37,096 nt of DNA, taken from the NCBI GenBank assembly GCA_011364925.1, contig RDOA01000039.1, positions 1 through 37,096 of the forward strand, in the 5' to 3' direction. The DNA comes from Promethearchaeota archaeon. GTDB lineage: Archaea > Asgardarchaeota > Lokiarchaeia > Sigyniarchaeales > SOKP01. Both the position numbers and the translations under genes were made by a program. Every line of letters starts with the position of its first letter. Position 1 is the stretch's first letter. Under the pieces are notes generated by a model. That model worked only from the letters and a program-made list of their open reading frames with translations. It searched no databases and had not been told where the DNA came from. Shown piece after piece: positions 16,303 to 25,577 of this stretch.

Positions 16303-17496
16303 ATGATTTCAACACAGAATAATAATAGCAATTTTGTAGGACCCCGAGCTCTATTTGATCAATCTTATATCCCCCCTCAGATTCTATACCGAAAAAAAGA
16401 AGAAAAGTCTCTCTTCTCAATTCTAAATGATTCATTTTCAGACAATTTCAGTTTAAATGTATTATATCAAGGTATCCAAGGGATTGGAAAAAAAGTCATA
16501 ATAAACAAAGTTATCAGAGATTTATCACTTCTAAATCCCGAACTCTCAACCATTCATAAGGCATATGTAGATTGTACAGATAAAAATTTGGACGAGATTC
16601 TTATTTCTCTCTTATCTGAAATAGGAGCTCATCAGAACTTAAATTTTGATTTTAAGAGCATTATAAATTCAAATATATCTGACTTATGGAATATATTTAA
16701 ATTGACTTGTAAAAAAGCAGATCACAATCTATTATTTGTGTTCAACAATATTGAACAGTTAAAACCAGAATTTTTCAAAAAATTTCTTCAATATGGAAAA
16801 GAAACTAATATAAGCCTAGTTTCTACTGGGAATCAAATCCTAAAAACTTCCACATTAGATGTTTTACCTGAATTCGACATAAAAAAACGATTAAGTTACT
16901 TTTCATATAGGGAACTTCACGATATTATAAAGCAGAGGATTAGTTTGGCTTTTAAACACGAAGTGGATAAAGAATTGATAGAATTCATAACTGATATGAT
17001 TTTTGAGCATCATGTTCCTGTACCCGGTAAAGGAATAGAAATTCTTAGAGATCTTTACCCCTTTTTAAGTAAACAAGTAGAGTTAAATCATTTAGAGATT
17101 TTAGACATACTCCAAAATCAGTTAGAATCTTTACAAATTACGGACGAATTCAGCATGCTTTCGTACATTTCAGAAGCAGAATTATTAATAATAATTTTTC
17201 TCGACAACTTATCTAATTATTTCCTAAAAAAGTCTAATTTCTATATTACAGTAGAGGAATTAAAAGAATTGTATTATGTCTCATGCGAATCCATTAACTT
17301 TGAAAAAAGTGAAGAGGAATTTAAAAATTTAATTACAACGATGAGAAATATTGGAATAATCAATGCTTCAAAGAAAAATTCTATGAACGATTTCAGATAT
17401 TTCAGCGAGAACATCCTAAATTATAATTTTTACTTTATGGTTATCAATCCTCAAAATCTGAAACACATCGTTGATGCAATTTTTAGCAAGCATTAA
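16303..17496 (+). CDS. Orc1/Cdc6-like AAA+ protein with degenerate ATPase motifs
   Basis: A 397-residue protein with the layout of archaeal Orc1/Cdc6: an N-terminal stretch YIPPQILYRKKEE, a P-loop region, the SYFSYRELHDIIKQRISLAF segment typical of the Orc/Cdc6 lid, and a C-terminal winged-helix-like part (about 290-390). The ATPase motifs are damaged: Walker A reads GIQGIGKK (57-64) with lysine in place of Ser/Thr, and the Walker B region FVFNNIE has N148-N149 instead of Asp-Glu. It is therefore probably unable to hydrolyse ATP. It is located about 160 bases upstream of smc in the same direction, which suggests a role in chromosome organisation or loading rather than a conventional initiator. 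A diverged STAND-like ATPase is an alternative. Confidence 0.65.
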   Translation: MISTQNNNSNFVGPRALFDQSYIPPQILYRKKEEKSLFSILNDSFSDNFSLNVLYQGIQGIGKKVIINKVIRDLSLLNPELSTIHKAYVDCTDKNLDEILISLLSEIGAHQNLNFDFKSIINSNISDLWNIFKLTCKKADHNLLFVFNNIEQLKPEFFKKFLQYGKETNISLVSTGNQILKTSTLDVLPEFDIKKRLSYFSYRELHDIIKQRISLAFKHEVDKELIEFITDMIFEHHVPVPGKGIEILRDLYPFLSKQVELNHLEILDILQNQLESLQITDEFSMLSYISEAELLIIIFLDNLSNYFLKKSNFYITVEELKELYYVSCESINFEKSEEEFKNLITTMRNIGIINASKKNSMNDFRYFSENILNYNFYFMVINPQNLKHIVDAIFSKH

Positions 17497-17659: not shown

Positions 17660-20600
17660 TTGACGCATATAAAGAAAATCTCGATGACCGGATTCAAATC
17701 ATTTGGTGATCGTACCGTTACTTTGCGGCTCTCCTCAGGGTTTACATGTATCGTTGGTCCTAACGGGGCTGGTAAATCAAATATTATTGATGCGTTAACA
17801 TTCGCATTAGGTCGACTAAGTAAAAAAACGATGAGAGCCAAAAGTCTCGAAGATTTGATTTTTGCTGGCTCTCGAGGTAAAAATCCTTCAAATAGGGCCT
17901 CGGTTACTTTATACTTCGATAATTCAGATAAAGTATTTCCAGGTGGAACTGATACTTTTGAAGTAACTCGGACAATTCAAAGAGGTGGGGGCGGAGGTTA
18001 TAAAATGAATGGAAAGAATGCTACACGACAACAGATCCTTAATGCCCTCGCAGCTGCAAACATTGATCCTGACGGTAGCAACCAATTCGTTTTGCAAGGG
18101 AAAATTGTTGAGATGACTCACATGAATCCCGAATCTCGTAGAATTTTTATTGAAGAGCTTATAGGACTTCAGAAGTACGACGAAATGAAGGATGCAACAA
18201 TGAAGGAGTTAGAAAAAGCAGAACGAGACCTCGGGCAATTTGAAGCTATTTTTAAAGAGGTGTCAGCCCAATTAAAGAAAGTGGAAAAGGAAAAGAACGA
18301 TGCTTTAGCTTGGAAGGAATTAGATGAAAAGATTAAACTATATAATGCTCAATTAATTGCTTTGAAGATTGAAAAATTAAGAAAAGAAGAAAATGAATTA
18401 GAAGCAAAAATAGAAGAAACTAACGCAGCTATAGAAGAATTACAAGAAAAAATAACAAGACAAGAAGAAATCTTAAAACAAGAATCATTAGTAATGGATA
18501 ATATTCAGAAAACTATATCTGAAAAAGAAAGAGAGAGAGAATTAATCAATGAAGGCATTACTCAACTTAAAACGCAACAATCCTCAAATCAAACCTCGTT
18601 AAACATAGCAAATAAATCAATTGATAAGATTTCACAAGAAATAAAAACACTAGAAAATCTTCAAATGGTTCTCGAAGAAGGCCAAACCTATGATTCTTTA
18701 ATCGAATCAGAATTAAAAATTGTTACTGATACGGAGAATCAAATTGAGGGCGCTAAAGGTGAAATAGAAAGTAAGCAACAGAAACAAGCTGAAATCGATG
18801 TTAACATAAAAAATAACAGCGATACTCAATCGGGTTATAAAGGAGAGATTTCTACAATCAAACAGAATATCTCTTCGAATAAAGCTCAAATAAAAGTTCT
18901 AAAAGAAAATATAAAAAAAAATGAAGAGAAGAAAAAGAAGTTAGAAATAGAACTTAGTAGGTTAAAAGGGGAATCTGAAAGCGTTGAAGAAGCTGTAAAA
19001 AATACAAATCAGGAAGCTGAATTAATAAGAAAAGAAATTAGCAATTTAAATATAAATATCTCAAAAGAAAACGATAATCAACAAGAATTAGAAAAATTAA
19101 TAAGCGGTTTAAGAGAAGAAAACAATCTTCTAAATTCAAAAATAGCAGATCTTAACTCTACATTATCCTCTCTAAATACTGAAATCTCTATGAATACAAA
19201 TAGAATAGAAAAGTTAAAATCTAGTAAAGTAGAAACAGAGAATAAGATTAAAGAATTGAGTAAAGGAAAAGATACAGAAGAAGCTTTAAAAGAATTATTA
19301 AAAGAAAGAGAATCCTTCGTTCATGATATTAATAAGTTTAAAACTCAAATAAAAGAAGAAGATTCTAATTATAGAAAAAATGAACAAGAATTAGAATTAT
19401 TACTAATGAAACAAGATTCTGTTGAATCAGAAATCAATGATAATAAGACAAAAATAGATAATATCAATACCAAATTAAAATTATTAAAAAGAGAACTTAC
19501 AAATCTTGAAAGAGAAAAACGCGATCTAGATTTAAAATCGTCCACATTAAGCGAAAGTTTAACAACGGCAGAAAATGAATCACAAAAACTTAATACGAAA
19601 AAACAAAACATTCAAAGACGGATGGGAGAACTTACTACGGAAAAAGATAATTTAACCGTTAAAATCGAAAATACAGAAAAAGAATATAATCAAAATACGG
19701 AAGATATTACAGGAATTCTTCAGATTTTGAACATGTTGACTCAGAACATCAATATATCCGTTGAATCGATAAAAAGTAACATCCAACAATCAAACGCTGA
19801 GGCTATTGAAACATCTGCAACCAATTTTAAGCAATTCGTCCTTGACATAGTCGATATCATGAAAACCGTCGAAGACGTTTCTGCGGAAGCTGAAGCAGAA
19901 GAAAAAACCGAAACTTCTGAGGTATCAGAAACCCTCAAATCAATTCTTCAAACTTTAACGCTATTTACAGAGAATGTCGATACAACGATTGATCAATTAA
20001 TAGATGGCGTAAAAGAATCCGCAGACATAGAGATACAACAATCTACTTCCACATTTGACAGTTTCGTTCAAGATTTAATGGAAATATTAGAAAACGTCTA
20101 CCTCTCTTTAAGGAAGTTAACGATGTCAAAATCTCAAGAGTTGTATAAACAGCTTGAAGAAATCACAGAAAATATCAATTCTCAGAATAATGACTTGAAC
20201 ATCATTGATCAAGATTTAACACGAATAAATACCCAAAACAAACACGATTCAGAAGATTTGGCTACGAACGCAAGGAGATTAGAAGAAGTTATTAAAAGAA
20301 TTAGTGAGATAAATGAAAAAGTTGAAAAATCTGAAAGCGAAATTGAACAGAGAAATAAGTTGATAATTGAAAGACAAAAAGAAAATTTCAAGGCTGATAT
20401 CGAAAGTTTTAAACAAAAAAAAGAAGAATATTGGAATACAGTCTCTAAAATTAAAGAAGAAATGGATATAAAACAAAAAGGTTTAGACGATTTACAAATA
20501 AAACTGCAAGAACTTCAAGGAATTCAGACTTTTTACGAGAAAATATTAGAGATTGAAAAGAACGTACAAGAGTTAAGTGCTGCTATTGACGATAAGAAAA

Positions 20601-22126
20601 ATGTAATAGTCAACACAGAAGAAAACATCAAAAAGATTAAACTTGAACAAGATGGTCTAAATACAGAGATTGAGAGTAAAATAACGGAAAAAAATAATTT
20701 TTGGGAAAATACTGAAAAACTACGGGCACAAATCGACGAACAAAATAAGAAACTAGAAGTTACTATGGATAAATTAAGAGCTCTCGAAAATGTTATGATG
20801 ATAATCAATTCAATTGATGAACTATCGAAAGAAAATGTCGAAGCAAATACAAGTATTAGCCAATCCAATAATGATATAGAAAACCTAAACTCTCAAGTGG
20901 AAGAAAAACAAAAGAAAGTTGATGAAGTAGAGGTAATAATAGACTCTTTGAGAGAAGAAAAAGACAAAGAGTTAGAGGCACAAAAGAAAGCACAAAAAGA
21001 GTTAAATAAACTAAATAAAGACCTTCAAAAATCTCAATCAAAACTGAACGAATTGAATAAAAATAAGGAAAGAGAACAAAAAATTATTTCGCTAAATGAT
21101 GATATAAAAACCACTGAAAAACAAATCGAGTCCATATTAAAAGATATCGAGAAAATTGAACTTGAACTGAAACAAGAAGATGCTAAAAAGAACATCAAAC
21201 AAGAAGAAATCAATAAAGAAATTCAAGGAAAGGATTTATCGTGGAAAAAGCAGAAGAACTATCAAAAACAAATCAATGATCTAAAAGCAGATCACTCGAT
21301 GGAAAATTCTAAATTAAATAACTTTGAATCTAAAAAGATCATCACAACTGACCAAATCGAAACCCTATATCAACGATCTAAAGATTATGGCGCTTTACCC
21401 CCAGTTACTGACGATTTGTCTGAATCAGGACTGCAATCAGATATCTCTACTGCTGATAACAAGAAAAAAGCCCTAGAACCCGTTAATCTAAAGGCTATTA
21501 AGCAATATGATACCGTAAAAGAACGATTTGATGAAATTGATATGAGAAGACAAACGATACAGAGGGAAAGAAAATCAATCCTTGACGCAATCGAAAAAAT
21601 CGAGCTGGAAAAAACTCGGACGTTCATGAAAGCGTATCACGAAATCAATCGAGAATTTGCCCGTCTATTCCAAAAACTCTCCCCTGGAGGCTCTGCTAAA
21701 ATGATTCTAGATCGCCCAGACAAGCCGTTTGAGGGTGGCGTAAGTATCGAAGCTCGACCCCGTGGAAAAAAAATCAGCAGCCTCGAAATCCTCAGTGGAG
21801 GAGAGAAAACGCTCGTGGCTCTCTCGTTCATCTTCTCGGTGGAAGAGTTTATGCCAAGCCCTTTTTATATTTTAGACGAGATCGATGCGGCCCTCGATGG
21901 TCCCAACGTCCACAGAGTTTCCATGCTCTTAAAGGACTTTGCGCATCAAGCGCAATTTTTAGTGATTAGTCATCGCGAGGAGAATATCGTGAACGCGGAT
22001 CGGATTTATGGGGTGACGATGCAGCAGTCGGGCATTACGGACATATTTAGCGTGGACTTAGAGGAGGAGGCGAAGCGGTTATTGGAGTTACCGGACGTAG
22101 AGCCTCAGGTGGGGGACAATATTTAA
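17660..22126 (+). CDS. smc: SMC chromosome-segregation ATPase, very long, without recognisable hinge
   Basis: A 1488-residue SMC protein, about 300 residues longer than usual archaeal SMCs. The N-terminal head has Walker A GPNGAGKS (33-40); the C-terminal head has signature LSGGEKT (from L1378) and Walker B FYILDEID (D1406, E1407). Between them lie two coiled-coil arms (about 170-685 and 820-1340) rich in Lys, Glu, Asn and Gln. The usual hinge (a glycine-containing globular domain with GVxGxxxDLI-like sequence) is absent by eye. Instead, the exact middle holds two related helical modules, about 686-741 (ILQILNMLTQN...FVLDIVDIM) and 762-817 (ILQTLTLFTEN...FVQDLMEIL). Translation starts at TTG, seven bases after GGCGGT; the ATG overlapping that site is quickly closed by TAA. 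scpA and scpB follow downstream. Confidence 0.93.
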   Translation: MTHIKKISMTGFKSFGDRTVTLRLSSGFTCIVGPNGAGKSNIIDALTFALGRLSKKTMRAKSLEDLIFAGSRGKNPSNRASVTLYFDNSDKVFPGGTDTFEVTRTIQRGGGGGYKMNGKNATRQQILNALAAANIDPDGSNQFVLQGKIVEMTHMNPESRRIFIEELIGLQKYDEMKDATMKELEKAERDLGQFEAIFKEVSAQLKKVEKEKNDALAWKELDEKIKLYNAQLIALKIEKLRKEENELEAKIEETNAAIEELQEKITRQEEILKQESLVMDNIQKTISEKERERELINEGITQLKTQQSSNQTSLNIANKSIDKISQEIKTLENLQMVLEEGQTYDSLIESELKIVTDTENQIEGAKGEIESKQQKQAEIDVNIKNNSDTQSGYKGEISTIKQNISSNKAQIKVLKENIKKNEEKKKKLEIELSRLKGESESVEEAVKNTNQEAELIRKEISNLNINISKENDNQQELEKLISGLREENNLLNSKIADLNSTLSSLNTEISMNTNRIEKLKSSKVETENKIKELSKGKDTEEALKELLKERESFVHDINKFKTQIKEEDSNYRKNEQELELLLMKQDSVESEINDNKTKIDNINTKLKLLKRELTNLEREKRDLDLKSSTLSESLTTAENESQKLNTKKQNIQRRMGELTTEKDNLTVKIENTEKEYNQNTEDITGILQILNMLTQNINISVESIKSNIQQSNAEAIETSATNFKQFVLDIVDIMKTVEDVSAEAEAEEKTETSEVSETLKSILQTLTLFTENVDTTIDQLIDGVKESADIEIQQSTSTFDSFVQDLMEILENVYLSLRKLTMSKSQELYKQLEEITENINSQNNDLNIIDQDLTRINTQNKHDSEDLATNARRLEEVIKRISEINEKVEKSESEIEQRNKLIIERQKENFKADIESFKQKKEEYWNTVSKIKEEMDIKQKGLDDLQIKLQELQGIQTFYEKILEIEKNVQELSAAIDDKKNVIVNTEENIKKIKLEQDGLNTEIESKITEKNNFWENTEKLRAQIDEQNKKLEVTMDKLRALENVMMIINSIDELSKENVEANTSISQSNNDIENLNSQVEEKQKKVDEVEVIIDSLREEKDKELEAQKKAQKELNKLNKDLQKSQSKLNELNKNKEREQKIISLNDDIKTTEKQIESILKDIEKIELELKQEDAKKNIKQEEINKEIQGKDLSWKKQKNYQKQINDLKADHSMENSKLNNFESKKIITTDQIETLYQRSKDYGALPPVTDDLSESGLQSDISTADNKKKALEPVNLKAIKQYDTVKERFDEIDMRRQTIQRERKSILDAIEKIELEKTRTFMKAYHEINREFARLFQKLSPGGSAKMILDRPDKPFEGGVSIEARPRGKKISSLEILSGGEKTLVALSFIFSVEEFMPSPFYILDEIDAALDGPNVHRVSMLLKDFAHQAQFLVISHREENIVNADRIYGVTMQQSGITDIFSVDLEEEAKRLLELPDVEPQVGDNI

Positions 22127-23686: not shown

Positions 23687-24697
23687 ATCGTATCAGAAGA
23701 TAAGGATGTAGAGAAAAAACATAACTTTACTGAATGGACAGTAAAAAACTTGAGAGATTTTGCCAGTCGTAATAACATTAAACTTCCTGTCAAATCTAAG
23801 AAGAACGAAATCGTTAAGTTTTTAGAACAAGTAACTTCTCATCCAGAATTTATTGATAGAACCATAGAAGATGAGGATTCAGACCAGGAATTAGAAGTGG
23901 AATTAATTGCTGGTGAGGAAGAAGATCCCGCTTTGCTACACAAAGAAAAGATGGAACTCAAATTTTGGCAAAAGCCTCCATATTCTAGTTTACTGGATCC
24001 AGAAGTGGCAAAAGAGTCTAATGTCGCTTTTTATGACCTCTCATCGTTAGTAGATAAATTTTTTAATAATATGCTCCACGAAGAATTAATCAATTACAAG
24101 ATTTCAGGTATAGCACTAAAAACTTCAGCAGTGCTACATCATTACAAAATATCAAGCATAATTCACGAGGAAGAACAAATACAAAAAAAAGAGGAATTAG
24201 AACGCTTTAGAGAAAAGCATGGTAGATCAATACCCAAAACCTTACCACAACCCATTCAACCTAAAATGTTGATATCTACAAAGGAAGAATTATTTGAAGC
24301 AATGAGGTCTGCTATAATAGAAACAATGCAGAACAAAGAGAAATTAAAGCGTAGAAGAATGAGAAGAGAAGAACTGAAAGAACAAAAACTTCAATTTGAA
24401 TCTAAAGCACATCTACCAAAAGAATTGTTAAAACATATTAGTGGACGGGAACAAACTGTAGAAGAGTTACATGAATCATGGTACAACCGAATCAAATCTA
24501 CAATCCAATTAGAAGATAAAGAAACATCTTTTTTTGATATGGCAGAGCTAATAAATAACGAAGAAGAGAGCGAGATCGGTAAGAAGTTCGCTTTCGTTCG
24601 CATGTTTTTAGCGTTAATGTTCCTTTCAACAGGTAATAAACTAGAATTATTCCAAGAAGAGGATTTTAAAGATTTTTCAATAAATTTAAAAAAATAA
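23687..24697 (+). CDS. scpA: Segregation and condensation protein A, with N-terminal SAP-like domain
   Basis: Kleisin partner of SMC. The N-terminal SMC-binding part contains YDLSSLVDKFFNNML; the C-terminal winged helix (FVRMFLALMFLSTGNKLELFQEEDF) should bind the other SMC head. The middle is a charged coiled coil. Before the kleisin, about residues 14-45 (EWTVKNLRDFASRNNI, VKSKKNEIVKFLE) resemble a SAP DNA-binding motif. That domain begins upstream of the first canonical in-frame start (TTG at 23750). Upstream, the frame is open back to a TGA at 23681, so the likely start is ATC at 23687 (M-V-S-E-D-K) with GGTGA just before it, or GTA at 23690. A sequence error is the alternative. About 336 residues in total. 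Followed 28 bases later by scpB. Confidence 0.8.
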   Translation: MVSEDKDVEKKHNFTEWTVKNLRDFASRNNIKLPVKSKKNEIVKFLEQVTSHPEFIDRTIEDEDSDQELEVELIAGEEEDPALLHKEKMELKFWQKPPYSSLLDPEVAKESNVAFYDLSSLVDKFFNNMLHEELINYKISGIALKTSAVLHHYKISSIIHEEEQIQKKEELERFREKHGRSIPKTLPQPIQPKMLISTKEELFEAMRSAIIETMQNKEKLKRRRMRREELKEQKLQFESKAHLPKELLKHISGREQTVEELHESWYNRIKSTIQLEDKETSFFDMAELINNEEESEIGKKFAFVRMFLALMFLSTGNKLELFQEEDFKDFSINLKK

Positions 24698-24725: not shown

Positions 24726-25577
24726 TTGAACGAAAATCACGAAAAGGAACCAGAAGATCAATTGGAAATTAAAGCCAATGAAGAAACACCGTTGGATGGA
24801 GCCGTTGATGACCTTCCTCAAGAGGAAGGCAATTTAGAAGGGAGTGAGACACTTTCAGAGACTGAAAAAATAATTGAAGAAGAGGAAGAGGATATCGAAG
24901 GAATAATTGAAGAAGAAATTGCTATTGAGGAAGAAGAATCATTGAGTTCCGACTCGTTAGAAGAAGAAGAAGGTGAAAACGATACTGAATCTGTTGGAGA
25001 TGAAGAAGTGGAACCTCAAGTACTTCAGGAACTCACAAAAGAAGACTTAGAATTACAACTAAAAATTCTAAGGAGAAATTTAATAGAAGGTGCTCTTTAT
25101 GCAGCTGGTAGACCTTTAGATGTGGAAGAATTATCAACGAAATTAGAAATCCCTAAAAAAGAAGTCGAAGAACTCGTAAGAGTTGTTGCTTTTGACTATT
25201 TAGAGCGTGAAGGTGCTTTGATTGTTGCCCAAATTGGAGAAAAGTATCAAATGCAGCTTAGACCTGAACTTACCGAGACGGTTTCTAAATTTGCAAAAGG
25301 TGGCGCAATCGCAGAACGCTATTTAAGAACGCTTACTCTTATTGCGTTAAAGCAGCCTATTTTAAAGTCCACAATCATTAAATTAAGAGGAACTGGTGCT
25401 TACGAGCATATAAAATATTTATTAGATAACGATCTAATTTCAGCGGAAAAAAAGGGAAGATCTGCTGAATTAACTACTACAGATAAATACTCCGACATGT
25501 TTGGATTGCCTAAAAATAAGCAAGAATTGAAAAGAATGATGATTTCCCAGTTAGGATTGGGGGAAAATAACGAATAA
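24726..25577 (+). CDS. scpB: Segregation and condensation protein B
   Basis: A 283-residue protein of the SMC-ScpAB condensin. Residues about 1-100 are an acidic, low-complexity extension rich in Glu. The rest has the two winged helices of ScpB: RRNLIEGALYAAGRPLDVEELSTKL and YLRTLTLIALKQPILKSTIIKLRGTGAYEHIKYLLDNDLI, the latter containing the conserved RGTGAY-like turn (RG..AYEHI). Start codon TTG five bases after GGCGAT. It directly follows scpA and is almost certainly co-transcribed with it. Confidence 0.9.
   Translation: MNENHEKEPEDQLEIKANEETPLDGAVDDLPQEEGNLEGSETLSETEKIIEEEEEDIEGIIEEEIAIEEEESLSSDSLEEEEGENDTESVGDEEVEPQVLQELTKEDLELQLKILRRNLIEGALYAAGRPLDVEELSTKLEIPKKEVEELVRVVAFDYLEREGALIVAQIGEKYQMQLRPELTETVSKFAKGGAIAERYLRTLTLIALKQPILKSTIIKLRGTGAYEHIKYLLDNDLISAEKKGRSAELTTTDKYSDMFGLPKNKQELKRMMISQLGLGENNE

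Follow-up and report, generated by a model that had tools for sequence, protein, structure and literature searches.

The hinge is usually taken to be an essential part of SMC-kleisin complexes, in which it serves dimerisation, contact with DNA and opening of the arms, and MukB, MksB and JetC all keep a small one. In Bacillus subtilis, Smc requires dimerisation at the hinge to function. A strain whose Smc carries the zinc hook of Rad50 in place of the hinge shows normal growth on rich medium, and the authors of that work regarded the fold of the dimerisation domain as irrelevant (Burmann et al. 2017, PMC5344682). The converse exchangeability of hinge and zinc hook is reported in a further paper (PMC6969161). 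SMCs devoid of a hinge have been described in marine Actinobacteria, with no replacement domain described (Sussfeld et al. 2025, PMC12153180): the premise of the first-pass annotation of the locus presented here, namely that all known SMC-ScpAB proteins possess a hinge, is consequently not strictly true. A literature search, with preprints and most subscription papers lying outside its reach, retrieved no account of a hinge-replaced SMC in Asgard archaea.

The window, that is, the whole stretch of 37,096 nucleotides analysed here, is contig 49 of a Lokiarchaeia genome that is 100% complete with 4.2% contamination, and the features of interest are collected in Table 1. The SMC reading frame opens with a TTG start codon and has no internal stop. 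Its product carries a split ABC ATPase head in which all head motifs are present (Walker A GPNGAGKS, signature LSGGEK and Walker B DEID), and it scores 585 bits against the NCBI model SMC_prok_B, above the cut-off of 567 bits. The N-terminal head is the lowest-entropy part of the protein among 46 orthologues, and head identity to hinge-bearing Asgard relatives is about 37–54%. For entropy, arm lengths and repeat comparison, the residue numbers of the orthologue set equal the window residue plus one, owing to one extra upstream codon at that reference locus. A degenerate Orc1/Cdc6-like reading frame (16303–17496, plus strand; 4e-15, below cut-off; Walker A GIQGIGKK) precedes the SMC gene in the window and sits immediately upstream of it in most genomes of family f1.

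Table 1. Positions in the window of the long SMC gene, its parts and the linked ScpA and ScpB genes
Feature	Position	Strand	Details
SMC, hinge replaced	17660..22126	+	1488 aa; ORF, Pfam, SMC_prok_B, profile-profile
N-terminal ATPase head	17660..18184	+	Walker A at residue 33; Pfam SMC_N 8e-44
N-terminal coiled-coil arm	18185..19705	+	residues about 176-682
Apical repeat 1	19706..19882	+	residues 683-741; outgoing hairpin side
Acidic linker and turn	19883..19933	+	residues 742-758
Apical repeat 2	19934..20110	+	residues 759-817; returning hairpin side
Conserved segment 3' of repeat 2	20111..20149	+	RKLTMSKSQELYK
C-terminal coiled-coil arm	20150..21514	+	residues about 831-1285
C-terminal ATPase head	21515..22126	+	LSGGEK, DEID; SMC_N second stretch 1.7e-29
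Divergent ScpA (kleisin)	23750..24697	+	PF02616 matches in homologues; AlphaFold winged helix
ScpB (kite)	24726..25577	+	PF04079 1.1e-32

The SMC gene is linked to genes for a divergent ScpA kleisin and for a ScpB kite protein. Taken by itself, the candidate ScpA matches no family; PF02616 matches are found in 14 of the 26 members of its family (best 5.2e-6), and the C-terminal winged helix of its AlphaFold model has ScpA and other kleisin C-domains as best matches (target TM 0.84, 4i99_C). As the only ScpB and the only ScpA-like match of the host genome lie beside the SMC gene, in an order (SMC-ScpA-ScpB) that is kept across families f1, f2 and f3, the locus is considered the SMC-ScpAB operon of this genome. 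The N-terminus of ScpA is variable in the order: seven f2 proteins (L103, L104, L109, L113, L116, L119 and L120) bear a long Lys/Thr/Ser-rich tail resembling that of histone H1, one f1 protein (L088) begins with an apparent helix-hairpin-helix domain and three genes (L086, L090 and L121) begin with a C2H2-like zinc finger.

A Pfam search detects no SMC_hinge in the long SMC, and across the whole genome the sole PF06470 match above cut-off is a distant SMC of 1165 residues encoded elsewhere. In profile-profile comparison the hinge profile matches the centre of the long SMC with a probability of 0.1%, as opposed to 64–99.6% for seven divergent single-sequence hinges used as positive controls, which include hinges too degenerate for HMM search that still reach at least 64%. 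Residues 683–819 contain 1–7 glycines and prolines per orthologue compared with 13–22 in the hinges of relatives, and a CxxC zinc hook is absent from residues 600–920 in all 46 orthologues. The first-pass annotation had read the protein as an SMC without canonical hinge and had proposed that the central region be compared with hinge profiles; the controlled comparison and the predicted structure bear this reading out, as no globular PF06470 fold is found in mid-protein. The long SMC is called a hinge-replaced SMC variant and not a standard member, a name that is chosen because its heads are those of an SMC both by sequence and in the tree. The annotation had also entertained a divergent hinge reduced to helices. 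The apical module does occupy the hinge position, and in the sister SMCs of families f5, f6 and f25 the hinge is already divergent or shortened; however, an extreme divergence in which the sheets were lost is very unlikely in view of a hinge-profile match (0.1%) far below those of other degenerate hinges, a match of just 0.4% between the module and the sister hinge regions, an AlphaFold model with no strand, and a duplication of one helix that accounts for the internal repeat.

A purpose-built hinge HMM that included coil flanks was dropped: it gave noise of 1e-5 to 1e-3 on some long SMCs and missed the reduced hinge of L162. Since it was able to miss such a hinge, the hinge-only profile-profile comparison with controls was used in its place. 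L162 itself (G051, family f9) is a further Asgard SMC whose hinge is strongly reduced and is overlooked by ordinary HMM search. The SMCs of family f25 (L055, L164 and L168) have a hinge about 20 residues shorter than usual and, located as they are on a branch beside the hinge-less clade, may represent the first steps of hinge decay.

The apex is built from two repeats with an offset of 76 residues (686 pairs with 762, and 741 with 817), exactly as the first-pass annotation had it. Aligned with each other, the repeats score 87, versus a mean of 27 and a maximum of 56 in 2000 shuffles and a best arm-arm score of 82 among 2850 segment pairs. Profiles of the two repeats drawn from the 46 orthologues match with a probability of 97.8% (E 7e-13) in an ungapped alignment of 58 columns, and 82 control comparisons of repeat with arm profiles give 5.4% at most. 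AlphaFold, supplied with 56 orthologous sequences, predicts two helices (601–746 and 753–909) and no strand, with a mean pLDDT of 85, a confidence of about 60–80 in the apical segment and a pTM of 0.46. The turn falls in the acidic linker, whose length varies from 8 to 22 residues among orthologues, and each repeat constitutes one side of a single hairpin. The two sides mirror each other about a centre at residue 750 or so, close to the midpoint of about 752 given in the annotation. Its phrase 'duplicated helical hairpins' thus holds for the duplication but not for the number of hairpins: the monomer prediction that it had proposed yields one all-helical hairpin, free of a hinge fold, whose two sides are the duplicates. 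The hairpin arose by duplication of a helix of roughly 58 residues.

The repeats also differ from the arms in conservation and composition. Mean entropy is 0.69–0.92 bits in the repeat blocks and 1.4–2.1 in the neighbouring arms; charged residues make up 17 and 23% of the repeats and 38–40% of the arms, whereas large hydrophobic residues account for 38–40% and 26–27%, respectively. In hydrophobicity all four repeat stretches lie above every one of the 29 arm windows, a pattern that helices buried on several faces should show. In a two-stranded coil about two positions out of seven have to be buried; the repeat helices exceed this number, in keeping with their packing against another hairpin. 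A Foldseek search with the apical model returns general hairpins and coils alone. The best neighbours are the hairpins of chemoreceptors, which assemble into four-helix bundles; the match is weak (E 1.3e-3, TM 0.46) and may reflect no more than a long hairpin. Sequence searches for relatives of the module in the PDB give de novo bundles and chance matches only, and none were found in viral contigs. Weak matches in three other genomes (E 8e-5 to 6e-3) are ascribed to chance: in G001 and G077 the reading frames read as a cysteinyl-tRNA synthetase-like protein, and in G110 the frame is interrupted by stops.

The arms are antiparallel coiled coils of matched length, a hallmark of SMCs, and both are longer than normal, as the annotation had noted: 651 residues separate Walker A from the apical domain and 560 separate the latter from the signature, against 499 ± 3.5 and 422 ± 4.6 in hinge-bearing relatives, an excess of 152 and 138 residues over hinge-bearing Asgard SMCs. 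Arm lengths are constant in 45 of the 46 orthologues (652–653 and 549–551). In family f3 the protein is shorter by about 190 residues: 96 are gone from the N-terminal arm (three genomes in agreement) and 88–90 from the C-terminal arm (two genomes). Both arms are shortened together and the module stays apical; an antiparallel arm tipped by the module would have to lose nearly the same length on either side, as is seen here, although the co-variation represents one evolutionary event.

The repeat pair is found in 66 of the 79 genomes of the host order, with no exception among the 17 high-quality ones, and is absent from the four genomes that represent the remaining orders of the class. In the rest of the phylum sample the module occurs solely on one contig of a Hodarchaeota bin (G130), whose long SMC was set aside as the contig measures 8.6 kb and is probably mis-binned. 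Every sequence stems from metagenome assemblies, a source in which a chimeric assembly or a frame artefact could arise; as the duplication without a hinge recurs in 46 distinct full-length copies, some of them on single-contig genomes, misassembly is excluded and an artefact is hardly credible. In a tree of head domains the long SMCs form one clade with a support of 100; their sisters are the hinge-bearing SMCs of f5 and f6, from the same class, together with f25 (support 82), and the whole assemblage lies within other hinge-bearing Asgard SMCs. This nesting indicates that a hinge was replaced; its loss and the acquisition of the module most likely both date to the stem of the order. Profiles, predicted structure, conservation, phylogeny and symmetric arm lengths all agree with the annotation's view of a replacement apical domain made by duplication. 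Most f1 genomes keep no SMC with a canonical hinge; in f1 (g4 and g5), f2 and f3 some genomes retain a canonical SMC as well, which usually has a ScpB of its own. Two SMC-ScpB systems thus coexist in one archaeon, as illustrated by L052–L054, L129, L133, L134 and L136, where a canonical-hinge SMC has a ScpB gene nearby.

The preferred reading, which is probable, is that of a lokiarchaeal, condensin-like SMC-ScpAB complex whose hinge has been replaced by the duplicated hairpin and whose two chains are joined by an apical helical bundle. Dimerisation by way of two such hairpins, implied by the annotation's 'replacement dimerisation domain', is an inference that is likewise held to be probable: the two SMC chains would join at the apex, their hairpins packing into a helical bundle, probably of four helices. 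Together with the heads and ScpA-ScpB, this bundle would close a ring, which would move or loop DNA through ATP-driven engagement of the heads. The homologous helices are predicted to run antiparallel, mirrored about the turn, and would endow the hairpin with an internal two-fold pseudo-symmetry, by virtue of which partner hairpins could meet either side by side or head-on through much the same contacts.

A related hairpin occurs outside the SMCs. Four genomes, all of them f2, encode a protein of 927–1044 residues (for instance at L183:4000–7131 and L184:3915–6695, both on the minus strand) that lacks an ATPase and contains two tandem copies of the hairpin (E 5e-23 and 1e-16 in one protein, 2e-26 and 3e-12 in another), a middle domain and a Lys-rich, histone-H1-like C-terminal tail, in which K and R make up 33–44% of the last 110 residues and a weak resemblance to HC2 is apparent (E 0.012). 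The hairpin is accordingly a movable domain, and the protein may point to a binding partner of the SMC apex. If the hairpin is a general interaction module, as its double occurrence in this protein would have it, the apex may be a docking site for another protein: either the SMC chains would be joined only at the heads via ScpA-ScpB, or the apex would bind a partner such as the tandem-hairpin protein or a chromatin factor. The marine actinobacterial proteins show that a hinge can be dispensed with in an SMC (PMC12153180). This alternative is rather unlikely: the module is conserved throughout the order, whereas the tandem-hairpin protein is missing from most of its genomes, the host genome included, and hinge dimerisation is indispensable to B. 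subtilis Smc (PMC5344682). A more speculative and doubtful proposal is that the hairpin provides a novel, reversible type of apical coupling for SMC motors, in which its pseudo-symmetry would allow two arms to be joined side by side or head-on, and that the f2 tandem-hairpin protein would co-assemble with the apices and tether them to chromatin.

The host genome harbours a second SMC (L060:2716–6210, minus strand, contig 32), a very divergent protein of about 1150–1165 residues with a weak hinge, for which the closest matches of known structure are SMC heads in general. Almost all genomes of the class have it, not adjacent to ScpB, and this wide occurrence would make it available as a heterodimeric partner of about 1155 residues for the long SMC. 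Such a pairing is nonetheless highly improbable, as its hinge-like domain has no counterpart on the long SMC, its arms are much shorter (1165 versus 1488 residues in total) and it is very distant in the head tree.

The findings suggest that a core component of a chromosome-folding ring machine has been exchanged in the course of evolution. A whole archaeal order seems to have replaced the hinge in its SMC-ScpAB operon, which in many of the genomes is the sole one. A natural swap of this kind, in a lineage near the root of the eukaryotes, makes it possible to test the role of the hinge in loop extrusion; the small helical module may in addition prove a useful dimeriser. The lokiarchaeal system shares with SMC-ScpAB of B. 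subtilis and Pyrococcus the ATPase heads, the long antiparallel arms and the adjacent ScpA and ScpB, but differs in the missing hinge, the duplicated apical hairpin and arms that are longer by about 140–150 residues per strand. MukB, MksB and JetC, compared here only through coil matches, are similarly SMC-like proteins with unusual apices or coils. Rad50/SbcC and archaeal ASRP/ClsN also have an apex without SMC hinge that is joined by a non-hinge element; the long SMC, in contrast, has no CxxC at its apex and scores 585 bits against SMC_prok_B compared with 152 for ASRP and 79 for Rad50. The hinge-less SMCs of marine Actinobacteria likewise combine SMC heads with the lack of hinge and zinc hook (PMC12153180). 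They are bacterial, however, and no replacement domain has been described at their apex, whereas the lokiarchaeal protein carries a duplicated, conserved module, longer arms and linkage to ScpAB, and its clade nests among Asgard SMCs in a head tree built without actinobacterial sequences. The strongest precedent is experimental, namely the engineered zinc-hook Smc, in which the hinge was also replaced by an unrelated apical dimeriser (PMC5344682): that protein is a laboratory construct, whereas the lokiarchaeal exchange is natural and order-wide.
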